Positions 1 to 9,891 of a stretch of 64,000 bases of DNA are shown one piece after another. The position numbers and the translations under genes were made by a program. The stretch's first letter is position 1. Each line of letters starts with the position of its first letter. Source of the stretch: Bacteroidetes bacterium HGW-Bacteroidetes-1 (GTDB lineage Bacteria > Bacteroidota > Bacteroidia > Bacteroidales > F082); the NCBI GenBank assembly GCA_002842755.1, contig PHDU01000001.1:1-64000 (forward strand), in the 5' to 3' direction. The notes beneath the pieces are model-generated. The model saw only the letters and a list, made by a program, of their open reading frames with translations, had not been told where the DNA came from and made no database searches.

Positions 1-143
1 TTTAATTACGCAATAAATATAGCATAAATTATCTTATAAATAACAATTATTCTTCAATACTTATCAATTTTTTATTATTGTATATTGATGCTTGTGGAAT
101 GGGTTTTTAGACAGTCTGACGTTTAGCAAGGTTTTTTTTGTTA

Positions 144-491
144 TTAAAACAATTCAAGCTGTTGGGGAGTGCCCGGTCGCTTGGCCGGATCCTGACCACG
201 AAAAAATTCCATCATTCCAAACTGCTTATCCGTCAATGAAAAGAGTATAATTTCCCCGCGGGGAGCAAGAAATGATTTTACCCGCTTCGTATGCACTTCA
301 GCATTTTCGCGATTGCTGCAGTGGCGAACATAGATGGAATATTGCATCATCGTAAAGCCATCCTTTTGCAGATTTTTTCTGAATTGGGCGTAGTTTTTCC
401 GGTCTTTTTTGGTATCTGTTGGCAAGTCGAAAAAAACAAAAATCCACAAAATCTGATACTGATTTAATCGTTTGAAATATGTTTTATCCAA
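144..491 (-). CDS. cas2: CRISPR-associated endoribonuclease Cas2
   Basis: 115 aa with Cas2-like start IFVFFDLPTDTKKDRKNYAQFRKNL; directly downstream of cas1. Confidence 0.93.
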   Translation of the reverse strand: MDKTYFKRLNQYQILWIFVFFDLPTDTKKDRKNYAQFRKNLQKDGFTMMQYSIYVRHCSNRENAEVHTKRVKSFLAPRGEIILFSLTDKQFGMMEFFRGQDPAKRPGTPQQLELF

Positions 492-493
492 TC

Positions 494-1399
494 TTAAATT
501 TTTAGCTCAGGATATAATAATTTTCTCGAAGATCCTTCAAAACAGGCAGATAACGACGCTGTTGTGCGCTGCAAACCTACCATGAGCGGACTACTTTTTC
601 CATCAATATCAACATCTATTGCCGGAATTTGCAAAAGCTGCTTTTTGATTTCAGGCGTTAGTTCATCTTGATCAGGAAATCTTTTCACAACCTCAAGAAC
701 AACACGATCAACATAAGGGCGATAGGGCTCCATGATGTCAGAAGCCAGACACCATGGGTTGTATTTGTTGCGATGATGGATGCCTACGGCTGGCAAAAGT
801 CCGCTTGAAACAAGACCACGTGCAACAATGGCTAAAAGTACGGCATATCCATAATTCAACATCGCATTTGGGTTTTCACCTAACCTATCTCTTGAAAATG
901 AACTTTCAGTTCCAAAAAGATTCTCCCAATAGTAAGCTGCTGCACGTCCTTCAACATTTTGCGGGTCACCACTTTTAACCAGCTTCAGGTAATATTGCAT
1001 CTTGCTGTCATTTATTCCCAAACTTCTTAGTATGGCAGCCTGATTGCTGATTTTTGCAATGATAGTTTGCTGCCAAAGGTTCTTTTTTAAAGGCAGAGAA
1101 CATTCAAGCTGTTGATACATTTTTTCGGTAAAAGCATGATGCGCGAACATGGGCAACATCAATCCAAAAGGCAAATGTTTTGCATCGCAACTGATGATAG
1201 CAGTATTGTTTTGATTCAATTCAGCAATCAGCGCATTGGTAAGAGTAATATGCGGGTTGTCCAACACAACAACTCCAACATCTTCGATGGGAATGATAGC
1301 AGGTGGTTTGTTCTCCTTTTCCGGAAAATCAATATGCATCTGCATGTCTTTCTTTTTCAGATAACAAGGATTACCAAAATAAAGGGTGCGTTTTATCAT
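494..1399 (-). CDS. cas1: CRISPR-associated endonuclease Cas1 (type II-like)
   Basis: 301 aa, MIKRTLYFGNPCYL start, GRAAAYYWENLFG and GIHHRNKYNPWCLASDIMEPYRP motifs. Confidence 0.95.
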   Translation of the reverse strand: MIKRTLYFGNPCYLKKKDMQMHIDFPEKENKPPAIIPIEDVGVVVLDNPHITLTNALIAELNQNNTAIISCDAKHLPFGLMLPMFAHHAFTEKMYQQLECSLPLKKNLWQQTIIAKISNQAAILRSLGINDSKMQYYLKLVKSGDPQNVEGRAAAYYWENLFGTESSFSRDRLGENPNAMLNYGYAVLLAIVARGLVSSGLLPAVGIHHRNKYNPWCLASDIMEPYRPYVDRVVLEVVKRFPDQDELTPEIKKQLLQIPAIDVDIDGKSSPLMVGLQRTTASLSACFEGSSRKLLYPELKI

Positions 1400-1461
1400 T
1401 TTCGTTATAAGTTCTATTTATGAAAAGAATATTAGCAGTTTTATTTTCACAGGTTTTAATA

Positions 1462-2115
1462 CTATGTCAAACCATGACTCTCCGAAAATAATTGAACAGT
1501 TAGTCCCAACTCATTCGCTCTCTTCAAATTACCAAAAACGCACTCACGCTTCCCCATATAGCCGCCCAGGGAAGAAAATTCCCAGTCTTCAGCTTTGGTT
1601 ACCAGCCCTACTTTTATCGGATTGGAATGAATATAGTTGAAACATTGCTGTGGATATTGAAGTTCCCACTTTTCGATGTTAATCATTGTAGCACCGGATG
1701 ATGTAAACCAGTTATGTGCTACTCTACTCGTTTCATTAAGACAGATAGCTTTCGTTTTTTGCCTGAAAAGTGAGCCGGTGCGATTTTCTTGTTTATTAAT
1801 AGCACGGGTATAAGAGGCAAGCATTATTCCGATGGAATGGTTGAAAGAAATTGGTTTGTTGTCTGGGTCATAGATAGTCGGAGTGCGACTTTGAGTCGCG
1901 CCCCGACTATCTATGACGGCATAAAGCCTCTCAACCTCAACCATCAAATGAAAATGATTCGGCATCAAACACCAGGCAAGCAGATTTCCAAATGGAACAA
2001 TATGATTGCATAGTTTATCAACAAAAAACAAATAGTTTTCGCGGCTAAAAAAGATTTTCTGCCGGTTATTTCCCTGGTTATAAATATGGTAGATGCCATT
2101 GCGTTCGAAATTCAT
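1462..2115 (-). mobile_element. REP-associated (RAYT-like) Y1 transposase, IS200-type fold, inserted between cas9 and cas1
   Basis: 217 aa; MPNHFHLMVEV (HxH) and YIHSNPIKVGLV (catalytic Tyr region), GSLFRQKTKAICL. Confidence 0.85.
1867..1917. repeat. 51-nt near-perfect palindrome inside the transposase ORF
   Basis: GTCATAGATAGTCGG ... CCGACTATCTATGAC are perfect 15-nt inverted arms; inner GTGCGACT/AGTCGCGC continues the stem with one mismatch. Confidence 0.9.
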
Positions 2116-2234
2116 ATCACTGAGATTAATGAGATTGAGATATTTCCGAGACGATCAGTGTTGACTTTGAAGCAGAGATATTGAGCGACTATCAATGATT
2201 TCATAACAAATCTGTGATCCAAACTATACAATTT

Positions 2235-2264
2235 GTTGCCGAAATAGAGTGTACGTTTTATCAT
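2235..2264 (-). pseudogene. 5' remnant of a second cas1 (MIKRTLYFGN)
   Basis: Minus-strand ATGATAAAACGTACACTCTATTTCGGCAAC encodes the same first 10 aa as intact cas1; lies 26 nt after the cas9 stop codon. Confidence 0.8.
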
Positions 2265-2290
2265 ATAAACAACTGATTAATCAACTTGAA

Positions 2291-5200
2291 TTATTCTCCT
2301 ACCGATACTATATTTCCGCAATGATTAACTCTAACCTTAATAAGGTCTTTTAAATTGGTTGGCGTCTGAATAAAATAATGAGTAATTCCAATTAAGTATT
2401 TCTTTGATTTTAAAGTGTCCCCATCTACAGCTTTTGTTTCAAGATGGTGATTAAAAACATAATTTTTTGTTGAAATTTTCTGAACTCTAAATAAATTAGG
2501 ACTTATGAGAAAGTAATTTTTGGAATCAAGTAAATCTATTTCTTTGGGGTTAAATCCTGTTTTTTCATTTGGAAATACAAAATACTCATTCTGCTTCATG
2601 CTAAACAGGAATTCCCAACCTTCGTCCTTCCTATAATCCTTGTCTATAATAGGCAGTCCCTGATTGACACGCATTGTTGCTTCAAAAAATGAAACGACAT
2701 TTTCCTGTAGAATTCCTTTATCGTCATTATAAATTGCGACATGATGATTGTTGCCTGTATTAACAAAATCAACAGCTTGCTTTTTACCTTCAGTATCCAA
2801 AATAAGAACTCCATCTTTATCTCTTTTGTCGTGTAATGCCACTGCATTATTGATTCCAGTAATGGTTACACGCTTTATTGATATTCCTTTTTCCTCATTC
2901 AACCAGATTGGGTTCTCATCCAAATTTGAAAAAGCTTTTTTACTGTCTCCTCCAAATTCATTCAAACGGACTTGTAATAATTCTCTAATTTTCTTGTCAA
3001 TAACCTTTTCAATTTTCAAATCTGGTGTTATGTCTTTCCTAATAGTATAAATTGTCACTACACCAACAGTTTTTATTTTTTCAGGGACTTGTAGTGTTTG
3101 TAAATCATTCAGGTAAAGCGGATTTTTGTCTAAACTATTCTTACCCGTAAAAGCTTTTTTTGGGTCTTTATCAAACTCAATCAAACGTTTCAAAAGGGCT
3201 ATACGATAGGATTTTTTTGCTACAGTTGCGATTTTCTCTTCATTGAATGCTGATCCTACTTTCTCCATTTTTGAAATAAATCGCTTAATACTACCATAAA
3301 CAGTCTCCAAATGAAGTTGGCCTCTGGGAGTGAGTTGCTTCTTTTTATTTGTTCCGTTTTTTTTATCTGTTTCATTAATATTAATCGTTGCAACTTTATT
3401 TTTAGCCTTGATCGAAATCAAGGTATTTTCCAGATGTTTTTTTGCCTCATATCGAAAATCATTTAAAGGTATTGGCGGTTTAAATTTTAACTTCCCTCTT
3501 TCATCACGATACAGCTCTTTTTGCTCTATTCCGTAAATACTTCCTGCTTTATCGCTTCTAGCATTTAGGTTATTAAGATATTGGATAAAACTTCGTTTTG
3601 TAAAAGCAATAGTTAGAGCATCCATTGCATGATGTCTATGGTCGTTTCTTTTTGTCCAATCTTTAATACGTCTTATTTTATGTCCATCTCTATTTTCAAT
3701 TGTTTCGGTCATGCCAAGCATTTCGAATTTTCCCCAATTCAGCTCCTGCATTACGTCAATCAGTTGCCAATCTTCTCTCAATCGATCCGTTATTGAACCA
3801 GTAGTTGAAATTACTTCTTTAACCAATTCTTCTAAAATTGCTTTAGCTTTTTTTGCTATGTATTGTGAATCTCTGAGATCGCGGGCAATAAAGTCATCAG
3901 GAATATCTTCACCTTTCATCTTAAGCTTATTATATTTCCCTCTGGAAATTTTTCCAGCTTTATACAACTCCTCTAGTCGATCAAGATATTCTATCAATCC
4001 ATTTTGGCCATATTTTGCTAAAACATATTCATAAGCAGTATAGTTCCCTTTATCAATATTTGCCGCCCTAGTTTCAATTGTTTTATTTGAAAAGGAATCG
4101 TCAAAAAGCCTTGATTGAGGTATTATATGTTCAATATCAAATTCTTTACTAAACAACTTTTCCTGCGCAATGTATGTATTAGTATACAACGTTTTGAACC
4201 CTCTGGATTCTAATTCAAGATAAAGTTTGTAGCGTATAATGTCGTTTCTACTAACGTTCGAAATACCAAATTCACTTTGAAGGATTGCACGATATTTCTC
4301 ATGTTCAATTGTTGCAATATTTATAGCATTTGTTAGATCTTCCCTTTCCTTTGCGCTCTTTTTAAGTTCACGTGCCAACTCTATTCTAATCTCATCAGGC
4401 TTTCCATAAGCATCAACAACTGTATTAACCACATTTATCATTTGGTTAATAATTTTCTCTACAACAGGATTACGCAAGCTATTTTTAGGCAAGATTTCAA
4501 GTTTATCTTTTAAGACTTTAGTATCCAGTTCTTCCTTTGTTAACGAACTCTTAGAATGCCGGTATCCTGCATACTTACAAGCTTCACTAAAATCATTTCC
4601 AGCCTTTAAATAGGGTAAAATCTTTCGAATTGCTTTAGAACTTAAACTTCCATAATCCTGCTGGAAACTAACATTTGCCAGAATTACAGCGTATTCCTTC
4701 TCAAAACCAAATAATTCAGTAATTTTATTTACTAATTTTTCATTACCAGTTTTTGAATCGTCTCCTTCATAAGAATACAACAAATGCCAGAATTTATAAG
4801 CTGCTTGCCTTTCAAATTCAATTCCTTCTAATTCTGAATTAAAGAAAAGAATATCTGTATTATAATTTAATCCGGTAAAAATTGATTTTACAGTTGAACT
4901 TATTTGAGCATAATTCATTTTCGAAAAATCGAACTCACCGTGACCAGTTAATTCAATAATCCTGAAGTAAGCTTCAAATAATACTGCTTGAGTTCTATTT
5001 CCTTCAATCTCTTTATAATTCAGGTCAAGTTCTATTGGGTTAGCAAATAAAAGTTTTAATACATCCGCCTTTGTAAGCTTATTTTTCAGAGTCAATTCTT
5101 TGAATAATAAATCTTTTTCTTCCTGATCCAATAGTCTTCTTTTATTGTTATTTTTTTCAAATACTTCAAGATTATTGAGAATTTGCCAAATTTTAAACTC

Positions 5201-6433
5201 CTGAAATAATGGTGATGATTTCGGGCACACTTTAAAACCAACTGTTCTTTTCTTCTTCTTTCCATCAACTAAGATCTCAATTTGTCTATTTTCGAATTCA
5301 CAAAAACCGATAAGACCTTTTTGACTTTTTAACCTTCTCTGATAAAAAATAATAATATTCCTTACTTCATGTTTCAATTCAGGTGTAAGTTTCTCATGAA
5401 ATGTTGACTGCTTTTCCCAGATTACATCAAACTCATCTAAATAATCCTGGCGGTAAAAAACTTGATTTTTTAATCGGGTATGAGAATTCATTTCCAATTG
5501 TGACATTAGATATTGCCCGACAGTCAGTTTATTAAAATAAAGTTCTTTACTTCTATCACTAATTGAGCCCAAATAGCCACTAGAACTGTTTAAGTTGGTA
5601 TTAATTTCAGTAATTACATACGCTGCTTCTTCTTTTAGTAATTGAGAATCTATTGCTTTACTTCTCCATTTATAGGCTTGTAACCTTTTTTCATCCCTAG
5701 TATTCTTGTTTTCAGCAATGTTAAAACCAAACTTTTTCCAAAAAGCTGCGGAGGTAACTCTTTGTCCCTTTCCTTCAATTTCATTTCTGAATTCTTTTGT
5801 AAATATTTCAGGATAAAACTGCGACTGAAAGTTCCACACCCTACCAAATTCGGATATTAAATCTGACCTGTAGAAATCAGGTACATGTTTTTTATTCTCG
5901 AGAAGTAACCCTAAAACTAACTGACCGGGAGTCAGATTTTCATCATAAAGTTTTTTCGCAATACCCATTCCGTCAATCAATTGTCCTTCTTCTTGATTTT
6001 TTGCTTTACGACTGCTCTTATATCCGCGTTTTTTGTTGATCATTAGCAATACACGAGCAAATTCTGACAATGAAATTTCTTCTGTTGCTGCTCTCGCTCT
6101 TAGTCTGTAAGTTTCAAAAGTGCTCCTATTTCCGTTTTCCGAAAAAGTAGTATCATCACTTACAAGGCCATTAATTCTAAGAATTTCTATAAGGTTTTCT
6201 CTCCGGAGCTTATATCGTTGAAGATTCCTACGCATACTCCTTTTAAGAGTTCTGTCAGCAGTTGTAGTTATGCTTTTACCTCGTTCAAAATTTGATTGCT
6301 CATCAACAGTCAAAGGATTTACTCTAACTCCAAGTTTAACTATCGAAGATTGTTCGGTATTATTTTCTGCCTCATTTACCAAAGCCCAACCAATACTGTT
6401 GGTACCTAAATCAAGTCCTAAAATTTTTTTCAT
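2291..6433 (-). CDS. cas9: CRISPR-associated endonuclease Cas9 (type II-C-like, 1380 aa)
   Basis: RuvC-I KKILGLDLGTNSIGWALV; Arg-rich bridge RTLKRSMRRNLQRYKLRR; RuvC-II IRIELARELKKS; HNH FDIEHIIPQSRLFDDSFSNK; RuvC-III NDHRHHAMDALTIA. Confidence 0.97.
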   Translation of the reverse strand: MKKILGLDLGTNSIGWALVNEAENNTEQSSIVKLGVRVNPLTVDEQSNFERGKSITTTADRTLKRSMRRNLQRYKLRRENLIEILRINGLVSDDTTFSENGNRSTFETYRLRARAATEEISLSEFARVLLMINKKRGYKSSRKAKNQEEGQLIDGMGIAKKLYDENLTPGQLVLGLLLENKKHVPDFYRSDLISEFGRVWNFQSQFYPEIFTKEFRNEIEGKGQRVTSAAFWKKFGFNIAENKNTRDEKRLQAYKWRSKAIDSQLLKEEAAYVITEINTNLNSSSGYLGSISDRSKELYFNKLTVGQYLMSQLEMNSHTRLKNQVFYRQDYLDEFDVIWEKQSTFHEKLTPELKHEVRNIIIFYQRRLKSQKGLIGFCEFENRQIEILVDGKKKKRTVGFKVCPKSSPLFQEFKIWQILNNLEVFEKNNNKRRLLDQEEKDLLFKELTLKNKLTKADVLKLLFANPIELDLNYKEIEGNRTQAVLFEAYFRIIELTGHGEFDFSKMNYAQISSTVKSIFTGLNYNTDILFFNSELEGIEFERQAAYKFWHLLYSYEGDDSKTGNEKLVNKITELFGFEKEYAVILANVSFQQDYGSLSSKAIRKILPYLKAGNDFSEACKYAGYRHSKSSLTKEELDTKVLKDKLEILPKNSLRNPVVEKIINQMINVVNTVVDAYGKPDEIRIELARELKKSAKEREDLTNAINIATIEHEKYRAILQSEFGISNVSRNDIIRYKLYLELESRGFKTLYTNTYIAQEKLFSKEFDIEHIIPQSRLFDDSFSNKTIETRAANIDKGNYTAYEYVLAKYGQNGLIEYLDRLEELYKAGKISRGKYNKLKMKGEDIPDDFIARDLRDSQYIAKKAKAILEELVKEVISTTGSITDRLREDWQLIDVMQELNWGKFEMLGMTETIENRDGHKIRRIKDWTKRNDHRHHAMDALTIAFTKRSFIQYLNNLNARSDKAGSIYGIEQKELYRDERGKLKFKPPIPLNDFRYEAKKHLENTLISIKAKNKVATININETDKKNGTNKKKQLTPRGQLHLETVYGSIKRFISKMEKVGSAFNEEKIATVAKKSYRIALLKRLIEFDKDPKKAFTGKNSLDKNPLYLNDLQTLQVPEKIKTVGVVTIYTIRKDITPDLKIEKVIDKKIRELLQVRLNEFGGDSKKAFSNLDENPIWLNEEKGISIKRVTITGINNAVALHDKRDKDGVLILDTEGKKQAVDFVNTGNNHHVAIYNDDKGILQENVVSFFEATMRVNQGLPIIDKDYRKDEGWEFLFSMKQNEYFVFPNEKTGFNPKEIDLLDSKNYFLISPNLFRVQKISTKNYVFNHHLETKAVDGDTLKSKKYLIGITHYFIQTPTNLKDLIKVRVNHCGNIVSVGE

Positions 6434-6439
6434 ATTGTA

Positions 6440-6469
6440 TTGACTTTTGAGTTTTTGATCTTATATTTG
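6440..6469 (+). promoter_or_regulatory. Bacteroidetes-type promoter for tracrRNA
   Basis: TTG at 6440-6442 and TATATTTG (TAnnTTTG) at 6462-6469, 19-nt offset, just upstream of the anti-repeat. Confidence 0.65.
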
Positions 6470-6473
6470 CATC

Positions 6474-6548
6474 ACAATCTAAAGCAATTCACAATAAGGA
6501 TTATTCCGTTGTGAAAACATTTAAGGCGGGGTAACTCGCCTTTTTTTT
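6474..6548 (+). ncRNA. tracrRNA
   Basis: anti-repeat ACAATCTAAAGCAATTCACAAT, nexus AAGGATTATTCC, then GGCGGGGTAACTCGCC hairpin and T8 tract; divergent from cas9. Confidence 0.85.
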
Positions 6549-6844
6549 GTTGATAATCCAATAGCAAACTTCTGAGCATAAAAAAATACTCCACAACACT
6601 TCAGCGTGTTGTATTTTCAGAATCGCATTCAGCGCCATACATTGTAATAGTATCATCTGGTCACTATTTGTTGTTCATCAATAATTCCGCCCATTATTTT
6701 ATGCAGCAACCAGCCGATGATTTGAAGTTCGAAAGATAAATAAATTTTTTATTATTTGTAAAAAAAATGATCATTTAAAAATGATGATATTGTATAGTTC
6801 GATTTATATTCTAACATTCTATCATCTTCCCACTCCAACAAAAA

Positions 6845-6873
6845 ATCCCGAAGACTATAAAAGTCTCCGGGAT
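6845..6873 (-). terminator. Rho-independent terminator of the hydrogenase/DHOD operon
   Basis: minus-strand ATCCCGGAGACTTTTATAGTCTTCGGGAT followed by TTTTTG. Confidence 0.75.
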
Positions 6874-6932
6874 CATACTCAAAAAAAATTTGGTCGGGCC
6901 TTGCGGCAAAAAAAAAATAATATAAAAAAATG

Positions 6933-7910
6933 TTATTCAAAGTTCTTTTTCATGTACTGTAGTCTTTCAAAACCTGCAGTGTTTTCAGGATATTTGTTTA
7001 CAAGACCTCTGAAGTCTTCTATGTTGCTATAGCCTTTCTTCTTCATCCAGTCGGAAAGACCATTCACAATTTCACGCAGATATGGAATGCCGTTTTGATA
7101 TAAAGTAGTGCAAACCTGCGTTACGGTAGCACCTGCAAGAAGCTGTTTAGCAACACCTATTGAATAATGGATGCCTGTTGAAGCAGCAATATCTGTCGGG
7201 ATACCGCTTGCTGTAAGAAGAGCGATCCAACGCAATGAGATTGACTTTTCATCCGGATTCGAAAAAACATTGTCCGTCACAACTTTTGCTGTGGCAATAT
7301 CCACATCAGGGTTGTAAAAACGATTGAATAAAACAAGCCCATCCGTACCTGCTTCTGCCAACCGGTATGCCATTGCATAGATGTTGGTAAAATACGATCC
7401 CATTTTTACTGATACAGGAATCGTCACTCTTTCCTTCACACTAGTCAGAATTTCTATATAAGTATCTTCTATCTGAAGACTGGATACATTTCTATCAAAC
7501 GGGAAAATGGCAATATTAAGCTCAATTGCATCCGCTCCCGCGTCCTGAAGCTTGGCAGCAAAATGAGTCCACCCAACAGGGCTCACACAGTTAACGCTTG
7601 CAATCACAGGAATTGATACAGCTTTTTTTGCCTCTGTGATAAGACGAAGATAATCCTCAACGCCAGCCCCTTTTGATATGTTCATCACAAATTCGGATGC
7701 TTCGGGATACCAGAAATAAAGTTCATTCTTACGCAGGTTTGTTTCGATTCTGGCATTGATTTGTTCTTCAAACAGTGATTTAAGTACAATTGCCCCGGCT
7801 CCTGCTTTTGCACATGCCTTAACATTTTCAATGTTTCCGGTCAGCTTGGAACTGCTAACCACAATAGGATTCTTTAAATTTAACCCGAGATAAGTTGTTG
7901 ATAAATCCAT
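6933..7910 (-). CDS. dihydroorotate dehydrogenase-like (PreA/DHOD fold) protein
   Basis: MDLSTTYLGLNLKNPIVVSSSKLTGN, ASVNCVSPVGWTHFA, PVSVKMGSYFTN. Confidence 0.85.
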   Translation of the reverse strand: MDLSTTYLGLNLKNPIVVSSSKLTGNIENVKACAKAGAGAIVLKSLFEEQINARIETNLRKNELYFWYPEASEFVMNISKGAGVEDYLRLITEAKKAVSIPVIASVNCVSPVGWTHFAAKLQDAGADAIELNIAIFPFDRNVSSLQIEDTYIEILTSVKERVTIPVSVKMGSYFTNIYAMAYRLAEAGTDGLVLFNRFYNPDVDIATAKVVTDNVFSNPDEKSISLRWIALLTASGIPTDIAASTGIHYSIGVAKQLLAGATVTQVCTTLYQNGIPYLREIVNGLSDWMKKKGYSNIEDFRGLVNKYPENTAGFERLQYMKKNFE

Positions 7911-7930
7911 TTTCTGTTATTTTAAATTCT

Positions 7931-8440
7931 TTAATTTTCTGTCGTCAATGCATTGATAAGAGTCAACGGCTGTTTCGTCAAAAGAAAAGGTTTAAAAAAA
8001 TCAAATGCCATTTCAAGGTTTTCTTTTGCCTTTTCCGACATTTCTTCTTTAAAATCCCATTCGTATCCTTTGATGTGAATCAGCCAGGCTATGGGTGTAA
8101 CACCATATATTTTTCTGCAAAGATCTATTACAAATGAAGGGGATACTGCATGCATTGAAAATTCAACCCTTGCGTCTGAGGCATCAACTTCCGATAATGA
8201 GAAGTGTTCAATATTTTCTTCCTGTGATGCATCTACGAAAACCACAGCCGTTGCTTTTGATACCGTATCAGCATCTTCAATGTTCAATTGATAATTACAA
8301 TCGGTAACGATATGATGTAAAGTATTTTGTATGATAAAATCATCTACTTTCTGGATAAAAGCAGCACCCAGACCATCATCCTGACGACCCGGGTTACCAT
8401 ATCCATAAATCAGTATTTTATCTGAATCTGTCATTCTCAA
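7931..8440 (-). CDS. hydrogenase maturation protease (HoxW/HybD family)
   Basis: ILIYGYGNPGRQDDGLGAAF start and VVFVDAS motif; overlaps hoxH stop by 4 nt. Confidence 0.88.
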   Translation of the reverse strand: MRMTDSDKILIYGYGNPGRQDDGLGAAFIQKVDDFIIQNTLHHIVTDCNYQLNIEDADTVSKATAVVFVDASQEENIEHFSLSEVDASDARVEFSMHAVSPSFVIDLCRKIYGVTPIAWLIHIKGYEWDFKEEMSEKAKENLEMAFDFFKPFLLTKQPLTLINALTTEN

Positions 8441-9891
8441 TGGGATCTTTTTCGATCAATAACCTGTTCGTTGTGATCAAGTAATGTTATTTCAAGTGGC
8501 ATTTTACCCAATGCATGCGTAGCGCAACTCAAACAAGGATCATAAGCACGAATTGCGACTTCAACTGCATTCATCATAGGTTCAGTAATTATCTCCTTGC
8601 CTGTCATAATTTTTTTTGCAACAAAATTTACCGAACGGTTCATCGGCTCATTGTTGTTGGTGGTAGATACGATCAGATTAGCCATTTCAATCTGATCATT
8701 ATCATTTATGCGGTAATGATGGAATAAGGTGCCACGGGGAGCTTCGATAACACCAACACCTTCTTTAATTTTTTGGCCCTTTGTAACGAGGTCATCACCC
8801 ATAATTTCAGGGTCGTTGAGCAACTCGCGGATCATTTCAGCTGCATGAAGTGTTTCAATTAAGCGGGCATAGTGCATATGCAAGCAATGGTTATTTGGCT
8901 TTCCATTCGTCAAAGCTTTGTATTTTTCGAACTCAGCCTGTGCCAGTGGTGTTGGGATGAAATCGATAGTATTCAAACGGGCAAGTGGGCCAACGCGATA
9001 CCAACCTTTTTCTTTTCCGTATTCTTTGAGGTATGGAAACTTCATATAACTCCAGCTCCGCACTTCCTCTTCAATATAATTGGCGTATTCCTGGCAATCT
9101 ACATCATTGAGTATTTTCTTCCCATCAGCGTCAACAGCGCGAAGCACCCCATTGTACAAGTCAAGAGCACCGTCTTTTCTGACAATGCTCAGATGATTAC
9201 TTGGGAAAAACGCAAAATTGTCGATAAAATCTTTATTGGCAAAATAGTATTTCTTGAAGAAATCCAGTGCCTCTTCTGCCCAGGATACCATCTTGTCCGC
9301 ATTGAGCGGGTCAGCACCTTTCAAAAACTCATCCCGTTCTTCAATTGAAAGGCTTTTATTGATTCCACCAGGAATGGCTCCGGTTCCGTGAATTTTTTTC
9401 CCGGCTGTGGCGCGGATTATTTCCTGTCCAAATTTACGCATCATTACGCCTTGAACAGCCAATGCAGGATTGGTGAGTGCTATACCTATGATATTCCGGA
9501 TGGCCGGATCACCATCAACTCCAAAGAGAAAATCAGGAGCACTGAGATGGAAAAAGTGCAAGGCATGAGATTGGAAAAACTGACCATAATGCATAAGCCG
9601 ACGCATTTTTTCTCCAGTACGCGTCAATCCTTCTCCGGTACCTGCGCCAACAATTACATCCAAAGCTTTTGCTGCTGCGAGATGATGACTAACCGGACAA
9701 ATTCCGCACAAACGTTGCACAAGAACCGGCGCTTCCCAATAGGGTCTTCCTTGCACAAAACGTTCAAATCCGCGGAATTCAACAATATGCAATCTGCTTT
9801 GCTGGATGTTTCCTTGTTCATCCATTAGAATGGTTACCTTTCCGTGACCTTCGACACGGGTTACAGGTTCTATGGTAATTTTTTTAGACAT
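8437..9891 (-). CDS. hoxH: NAD-linked [NiFe] hydrogenase large subunit HoxH
   Basis: RVEGHGKVTI, RLCGICPVSHH (N-terminal CxxC), DPCLSCATHALGKMPL (C-terminal CxxC). Confidence 0.93.
   Translation of the reverse strand: MSKKITIEPVTRVEGHGKVTILMDEQGNIQQSRLHIVEFRGFERFVQGRPYWEAPVLVQRLCGICPVSHHLAAAKALDVIVGAGTGEGLTRTGEKMRRLMHYGQFFQSHALHFFHLSAPDFLFGVDGDPAIRNIIGIALTNPALAVQGVMMRKFGQEIIRATAGKKIHGTGAIPGGINKSLSIEERDEFLKGADPLNADKMVSWAEEALDFFKKYYFANKDFIDNFAFFPSNHLSIVRKDGALDLYNGVLRAVDADGKKILNDVDCQEYANYIEEEVRSWSYMKFPYLKEYGKEKGWYRVGPLARLNTIDFIPTPLAQAEFEKYKALTNGKPNNHCLHMHYARLIETLHAAEMIRELLNDPEIMGDDLVTKGQKIKEGVGVIEAPRGTLFHHYRINDNDQIEMANLIVSTTNNNEPMNRSVNFVAKKIMTGKEIITEPMMNAVEVAIRAYDPCLSCATHALGKMPLEITLLDHNEQVIDRKRSH

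Follow-up and report, generated by a model that had tools for sequence, protein, structure and literature searches.

In a 2019 study, the adaptation module and the array of CRISPR (clustered regularly interspaced short palindromic repeats)–Cas loci were described as staying constant while the effector module is exchanged (PMC6452270), and in situ shuffling of Cas9 in type II-C loci of Flavobacteriales was reported in 2025 (PMC12669027, legend to Extended Data Fig. 9). Fonfara et al. found in 2013 that Cas9 and Cas1 trees largely agree and that dual-RNA is exchangeable only between close Cas9s (PMC3936727). Here, we analyzed a type II-C locus of Bacteroidetes bacterium HGW-Bacteroidetes-1, located at the beginning of contig PHDU01000001.1, of which the first 64,000 nucleotides (nt) constitute the window. 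At positions 2235 to 2264, directly behind cas9, lies a solitary cas1 start, referred to here as the ghost. This site is likely to be the scar of an in situ exchange in which the present cas9, belonging to a clade designated A, replaced a resident cas9 of clade B (cas9-A and cas9-B, respectively). In situ cas9 exchange is already known; the novelty lies in a scar that can be read and that recurs, and a limited literature search found no prior description of a readable junction.

Two remnants at the cas9–cas1 junction

On the minus strand, the locus comprises, in order, cas9-A, 26 nt, the ghost, a 57-nt filler, a Cas9-B tail of approximately 13 codons, a gene resembling REP-associated tyrosine transposases (RAYT; REP, repetitive extragenic palindrome), intact cas1, and cas2. 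The ghost (ATGATAAAACGTACACTCTATTTCGGCAAC, minus strand) encodes MIKRTLYFGN and begins 26 nt behind the cas9 stop codon. An earlier reading of the letters and open reading frames (ORFs) without database searches, the sequence-only reading, had pointed to this motif and to six silent codon differences from the intact cas1 at 494 to 1399 (minus strand), and both were exact on re-reading. The two starts match at 24 of 30 nt, and six of the ten codons differ, all silently (CGT/CGC, ACA/ACC, CTC/CTT, TTC/TTT, GGC/GGT, and AAC/AAT), after which the cas1 homology of the ghost ends abruptly. On both strands of the window, no other site resembled the cas1 start at more than 19 of 30 nt, and no other 10-mer besides cas1 itself matched it at more than 6 of 10 residues. 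Moreover, the motif occurs once in the 4.23-Mb assembly when up to three mismatches are allowed. The one other cas1 of the genome sits on another contig and was missed by a search with the Cas1 of the window, and it is therefore a different kind of cas1. The ghost cas1 start is not due to chance. It is identical at 26 to 27 of 30 nt to the starts of many cas1 genes, and because Cas1 of Bacteroidota II-C systems usually begins with MIKRTLYFGN, the ten identical residues name no particular lineage.

Continued beyond the ghost, the same frame reads KLYSLDHRFVMKSLIVAQYLCFKVNTDRLGNISISLISVI and stops at 2112; its end overlaps the beginning of the RAYT-like gene. Approximately 60 nt beyond the ghost, this frame enters a second remnant that had previously gone unnoticed, at 2136 to 2174 (minus strand, CFKVNTDRLGNIS). 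Its pattern, C.K...DRLGNI, is that of the C-terminal end of Cas9-B, whereas the clade-A Cas9 of the window ends in KVRVNHCGNIVSVGE instead. In a six-frame search of the window with a profile of 16 Cas9-B tails, the remnant was the best hit (E = 8.9e-5), and the next had an E value of 0.66. The same kind of profile run against 395 genomes retrieved Cas9-B tails, with the remnant as the sole hit in its own genome (E = 8.9e-4), and a DNA profile of the Cas9-B tail also recovered it (E = 1.8e-4). When the 32-residue remnant alone was searched against the 395 genomes, at least 8 of approximately 57 hits were Cas9-B C termini. The filler that separates the ghost from this remnant occupies 2178 to 2234 (minus strand); by eye only, it faintly resembles a CRISPR repeat and the REP arm.

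Conflict between the Cas9 and Cas1–Cas2 trees and the probable direction of exchange

A Cas9 tree of 49 loci resolved three clean clades, A, B, and C, and the proteins of clade B, mostly 1440 to 1670 aa long, are approximately 30% identical to the Cas9 of the window. The nearest Cas9s to the latter are those of the related loci L036 (73%), L116 (72%), and L037 (72%), and it forms a clade of three with L036 and L116 (support 98/96). The nearest Cas1s are those of L116 (78%), L170 (76%), and L186 (74%), with which the Cas1 of the window forms a clade of four (support 100/99). Cas2 agrees with Cas1, grouping with L186 (99/90) and L170 (98/91). Both L170 and L186 carry Cas9-B: compared with the window, L170 is 76% identical in Cas1, 81% in Cas2, and 30% in Cas9, and L186 is 74%, 84%, and 30% identical, respectively. 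Related cas1–cas2 genes thus stand beside a distant cas9, the arrangement by which an in situ cas9 exchange is recognized. An approximately unbiased test on Cas1 rejected the grouping of the window with its Cas9 sisters L036 and L116 (log-likelihood difference 144). The Cas9 clade labels scatter over the Cas1 tree, with 13, 11, and 6 changes for A, B, and C; supported branches require no fewer than 9, 9, and 5 of these, respectively. In L116 (G015:C86), Cas9-A likewise occurs with Cas1–Cas2 of the Cas9-B side; no scar is present, and a different type of RAYT lies 2 nt past the cas9 stop. The window and L116 may or may not go back to a single swap (p = 0.40 for Cas1 and p = 0.052 for Cas9).

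The sequence-only reading had suggested comparing the trees of Cas9 and Cas1/Cas2, and this comparison revealed the strong incongruence described above. Its proposal of a chimeric locus with a cas9-proximal cas1 that was cut off is borne out by the conflicting trees and by the Cas9-B tail across the breakpoint. However, it took cas1–cas2 to be the later arrival, and the reverse is likelier. The spacer between cas9 and the tracrRNA (trans-activating CRISPR RNA) candidate matches that of the Cas9-B locus L170 at 50 of 56 nt, including 33 identical nt at 6438 to 6470 (plus strand), compared with 42 of 54 nt for L036 and 42 of 56 nt for L116 (L007 in that comparison); the median longest word common to pairs of loci in this spacer is 9 nt. 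Sequence of the resident type therefore flanks cas9 on either side. In addition, similarity of the array repeats among 71 loci tracks Cas1 (partial rho 0.31, p = 0.001) and not Cas9 (−0.11), and in the same analysis the stretch upstream of the tracrRNA tracks Cas1 weakly (0.12, p = 0.014). Because the spacer, cas1, and cas2 go with the Cas9-B side, the repeats follow Cas1, and a pair of related loci described below differs by an exchange of cas9, it is cas9 together with 30 nt of its own cas1 that is probably the newcomer.

The exchange most likely proceeded as follows. The resident locus would have consisted of the tracrRNA, cas9-B, the RAYT-like gene, cas1, cas2, and the array. The donor fragment, from a second II-C locus, would have carried the whole of cas9-A, the 26-nt spacer at 2265 to 2290 (minus strand), and the first 30 nt of cas1, so that the ghost would represent donor cas1 codons 1 to 10. 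In cargo-free Cas9-A loci, cas1 follows approximately 5 to 30 nt behind cas9, a range that includes this spacer; the cas9–cas1 gap of the donor would accordingly have been free of cargo, and the RAYT-like gene would have come with the resident. The replaced part of cas9-B would extend from near the start codon to roughly 13 codons before the end. The 5′ join, which is bracketed to the spacer or the first cas9 codons, would be a homologous crossover probably within the conserved first codons or just upstream, since both clades share the first codons of cas9 almost verbatim. The 3′ join, bracketed to 2175 to 2235, would be illegitimate: the donor part would have extended beyond cas9 as far as the donor cas1 and joined the resident cas9 approximately 13 codons ahead of the stop, leaving the cas1 stub, the filler, and the Cas9-B tail. 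The new Cas9 would then use the resident tracrRNA and array, which the near-invariant core of the tracrRNA would make tolerable.

Scars in related loci and alternative explanations

We scanned 51 cas9–cas1 gaps other than that of the window for Cas9 tails. A Cas9-B tail was found directly behind the Cas9-A stop in L046 (E = 2e-5), L069 (E = 3e-5), and L036 (E = 3e-4), and no Cas9-A tail was found in any of the scanned gaps. A remnant of the replaced effector is thus present at the junction in the window as well as in these three loci, in which the donor part would end at the cas9 stop. When 2 Mb were scanned without gaps for the 36-nt remnant of the window, the relics of L046 and L069 ranked first (31/36 and 28/36), against at most 24 in the reversed control. 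L118, considered as a fifth scar, was dropped because the sequence that matched belongs to its own Cas9-C, as the in-frame tail of that protein. In L175 (G269:C97), a Cas9-B gene appears to be broken, with its tail in a separate 52-residue frame ahead of an intact RAYT-like gene and cas1.

L036 can be compared with a locus that appears to represent its earlier state. From the start of the RAYT-like gene through cas1 and cas2 into the array, L036 and L189 are 72% identical in nucleotides over approximately 2.2 kb, and their proteins are 85% identical in Cas1, 87% in Cas2, and 28% in Cas9. We read L189 and L036 as a before-and-after pair in which the chassis of the RAYT-like gene, cas1, cas2, and array was kept and cas9 was exchanged.

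Several points weigh against an exchange of cas9 in the window. The Cas9-B remnant is only 13 codons long, and its tail profile was built after the motif had been spotted, so that the E values are somewhat flattering; the scars in L036, L046, and L069 were found independently and are free of this bias. Neither the window nor approximately 2 Mb of sequence from related loci contained a match to the filler beyond short chance words, and no donor or recipient locus of more than approximately 80% identity was found. The agreement between repeat and tracrRNA is predicted only, as the array lies beyond the contig end. In addition, the intact Cas9-B tails at hand match the remnant at no more than 25 of 36 nt, below the relics of L046 and L069. 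It is conceivable that a relic travels along with cas9-A lineages, and the closer match to the relics would reflect either this or a resident Cas9-B of an unsampled subclade. We favor the unsampled subclade because the ghost sits between cas9 and the relic in the window. Finally, the genome is a metagenome assembly of 195 contigs, and its contamination estimate is 3.6%, so a misassembly or binning error that joined two CRISPR loci has to be considered. We judge such an artifact very unlikely because resident-type sequence on both sides of cas9 calls for two coincident joins, one on each side, and similar scars are present in three other assemblies.

The same junction could also have arisen in the opposite direction, with the Cas9-A locus as the resident and a block from a Cas9-B locus (the cas9-B tail, the RAYT-like gene, cas1, cas2, and array) replacing its adaptation genes after cas1 codon 10. 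The 3′ junction is equally compatible with this course, and the incongruence of Cas9 and Cas1 gives no direction by itself. However, the spacer on the tracrRNA side matches L170 better than L036 or L116, the repeats follow Cas1 across the 71 loci, L036 and L189 keep the chassis and change cas9, and in published work adaptation genes and arrays are mostly fixed while effectors are exchanged (PMC6452270); an incoming adaptation block is thus improbable. Duplication of cas1 in tandem, with decay of one copy within a single lineage, would account for two successive cas1 starts. The sequence-only reading had argued that a recent duplication should be nearly identical in nucleotides, and the limited match and short homology of the two starts agree with its objection. 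That all six codon differences among the ten are silent, and that homology then ends abruptly, fits two lineages each under selection; moreover, the trees conflict, and a duplication in its simple form is already refuted by the Cas9-B tail lying between the copies. We assign a duplication next to no probability. An idea prompted by L157, in which a RAYT piece is followed by 35 cas1 codons, was that a RAYT-like element targets the cas1 start and bears the initial cas1 codons in duplicate at its end, so that cas1 is made whole again upon insertion while the old start remains. RAYT-like genes are indeed found immediately ahead of cas1 in many loci, but no other RAYT-bearing locus examined has a ghost cas1 start, and RAYT copies outside cas loci have no cas1 start behind them. 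L157 itself looks like a decayed CRISPR locus, since the related G147 has repeats and cas genes there. As this idea also leaves the Cas9-B tail and the tree conflict unexplained, it was rejected as hardly credible, and replacement of a resident cas9-B by cas9-A is the reading that we retain.

Locus layout, gap cargo and known systems

The cas9 gene, the probable newcomer, encodes 1380 aa at 2291 to 6433 (minus strand; TIGR01865, E = 2.7e-149; HNH_4; RuvC_III), with RuvC-I (GLDLGTNSIGW), HNH, and RuvC-III all found. Of the genes assigned to the resident, cas1 encodes 301 aa (TIGR03639, E = 1.9e-85) and cas2, at 144 to 491 (minus strand), encodes 115 aa from a TTG start (TIGR01573, E = 1e-20). 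Among the ORFs and profile hits of positions 1 to 9000, no cas genes other than cas9, cas1, and cas2 were found, and neither csn2 nor cas4 is present, as in type II-C. A candidate tracrRNA is predicted at 6471 to 6548 (plus strand), with an anti-repeat, the conserved core AAGCAATTCACAATAAGGATTATTCCGTTGTGAAAACAT, and a terminator formed by a GC hairpin and a T-run. Nearly all loci of clades A, B, and C have this core upstream of cas9, in divergent orientation. The contig begins 143 nt past cas2, at the position where L116, L170, and L186 have CRISPR arrays. The anti-repeat of the window, ACAATCTAAAGCAATTCACAAT, fits the L116-type repeat, and array repeats of the L116/L170 type end in ACAATCTAAAAGCAATTCACAAC. 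The resulting locus appears functional.

The RAYT-like gene at 1462 to 2115 (minus strand), which is assigned to the resident chassis, has an intact frame of 217 aa with an HFH motif. It scores 48.7 bits against NF047646, the family of REP-associated tyrosine transposases, below the curated cut-off of 80 bits. Like that family, it has the HUH motif, and flanking REP-like hairpins occur in relatives. Relatives 45 to 68% identical to it immediately precede cas1 in many loci whose Cas9s are different. Unlike the family, the window gene is located in a cas9–cas1 gap, with no clear palindrome beside it and a REP-like palindrome inside its frame at 1867 to 1917 (24-nt arms, 92% complementary, 3-nt loop). 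In-frame REP-type hairpins also occur in the RAYT-like genes of L036, L144, L146, L157, L174, L178, L180, L181, L182, and L184. Most have a stem of 15 to 29 nt and a 3-nt loop at a near-fixed site (mostly codons 66–101), and they are of the same type as the flanking hairpins where these are found, with a sequence that differs per locus. The cas9–cas1 gap of Bacteroidota II-C loci is a recurrent site for a single cargo gene (e.g. L007, L036–L038, L045, L046, L054, L061, L069, L072, L080, L108, L111, and L114). RAYT-like genes of various kinds make up part of this cargo; other cargo proteins, as judged by eye from the sequence, are BRO/RhuM-like, ATPase-like, or four-helix-bundle-like. In L174 (G387:C1), the gap contains a tandem pair of RAYT-like genes, each accompanied by a hairpin of the same type. 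In L157/L231 (G150:C63), the RAYT piece is fused in frame to an IS21-like piece, and the cas1 codons that follow end in a REP-like palindrome.

A broader idea, on which we are evenly divided, is that cas9 alone is a swappable cassette in Bacteroidota II-C loci. The near-invariant tracrRNA core and cas9 start would let unrelated Cas9 clades plug into a fixed chassis of tracrRNA, cas1, cas2, and array, and each exchange would leave a diagnostic scar consisting of the old Cas9 tail and sometimes a donor cas1 start. If this is true, donor, recipient, and breakpoint could be read from scars in many genomes. Effector exchange has been known from tree conflict and its course has not; the stubs of both partners, together with L189 and L036, make the unit, direction, and breakpoints readable. 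They also pose a testable question, namely whether one tracrRNA and one array can serve Cas9s with only 30% identity, although the rule restricts dual-RNA to close Cas9s.

Comparing the locus with described systems, the closest likeness is to the Cas9 shuffling of Flavobacteriales, in which cas9 is also exchanged in place; as far as the legend and text describe it, that exchange was deduced from trees and locus schemes (PMC12669027), whereas in the present Bacteroidales locus pieces of both partners survive at the junction itself. As in the exchange of effector modules, the adaptation genes and array stay and the effector is swapped; however, the unit here would be the cas9 frame plus 56 nt, and the spacer on the tracrRNA side apparently stays as well (PMC6452270). 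The loci in which Cas9 and dual-RNA coevolve are likewise II-C loci with a tracrRNA and an array, whereas here Cas9 clades of approximately 30% identity share one chassis with an almost invariant tracrRNA core (PMC3936727).
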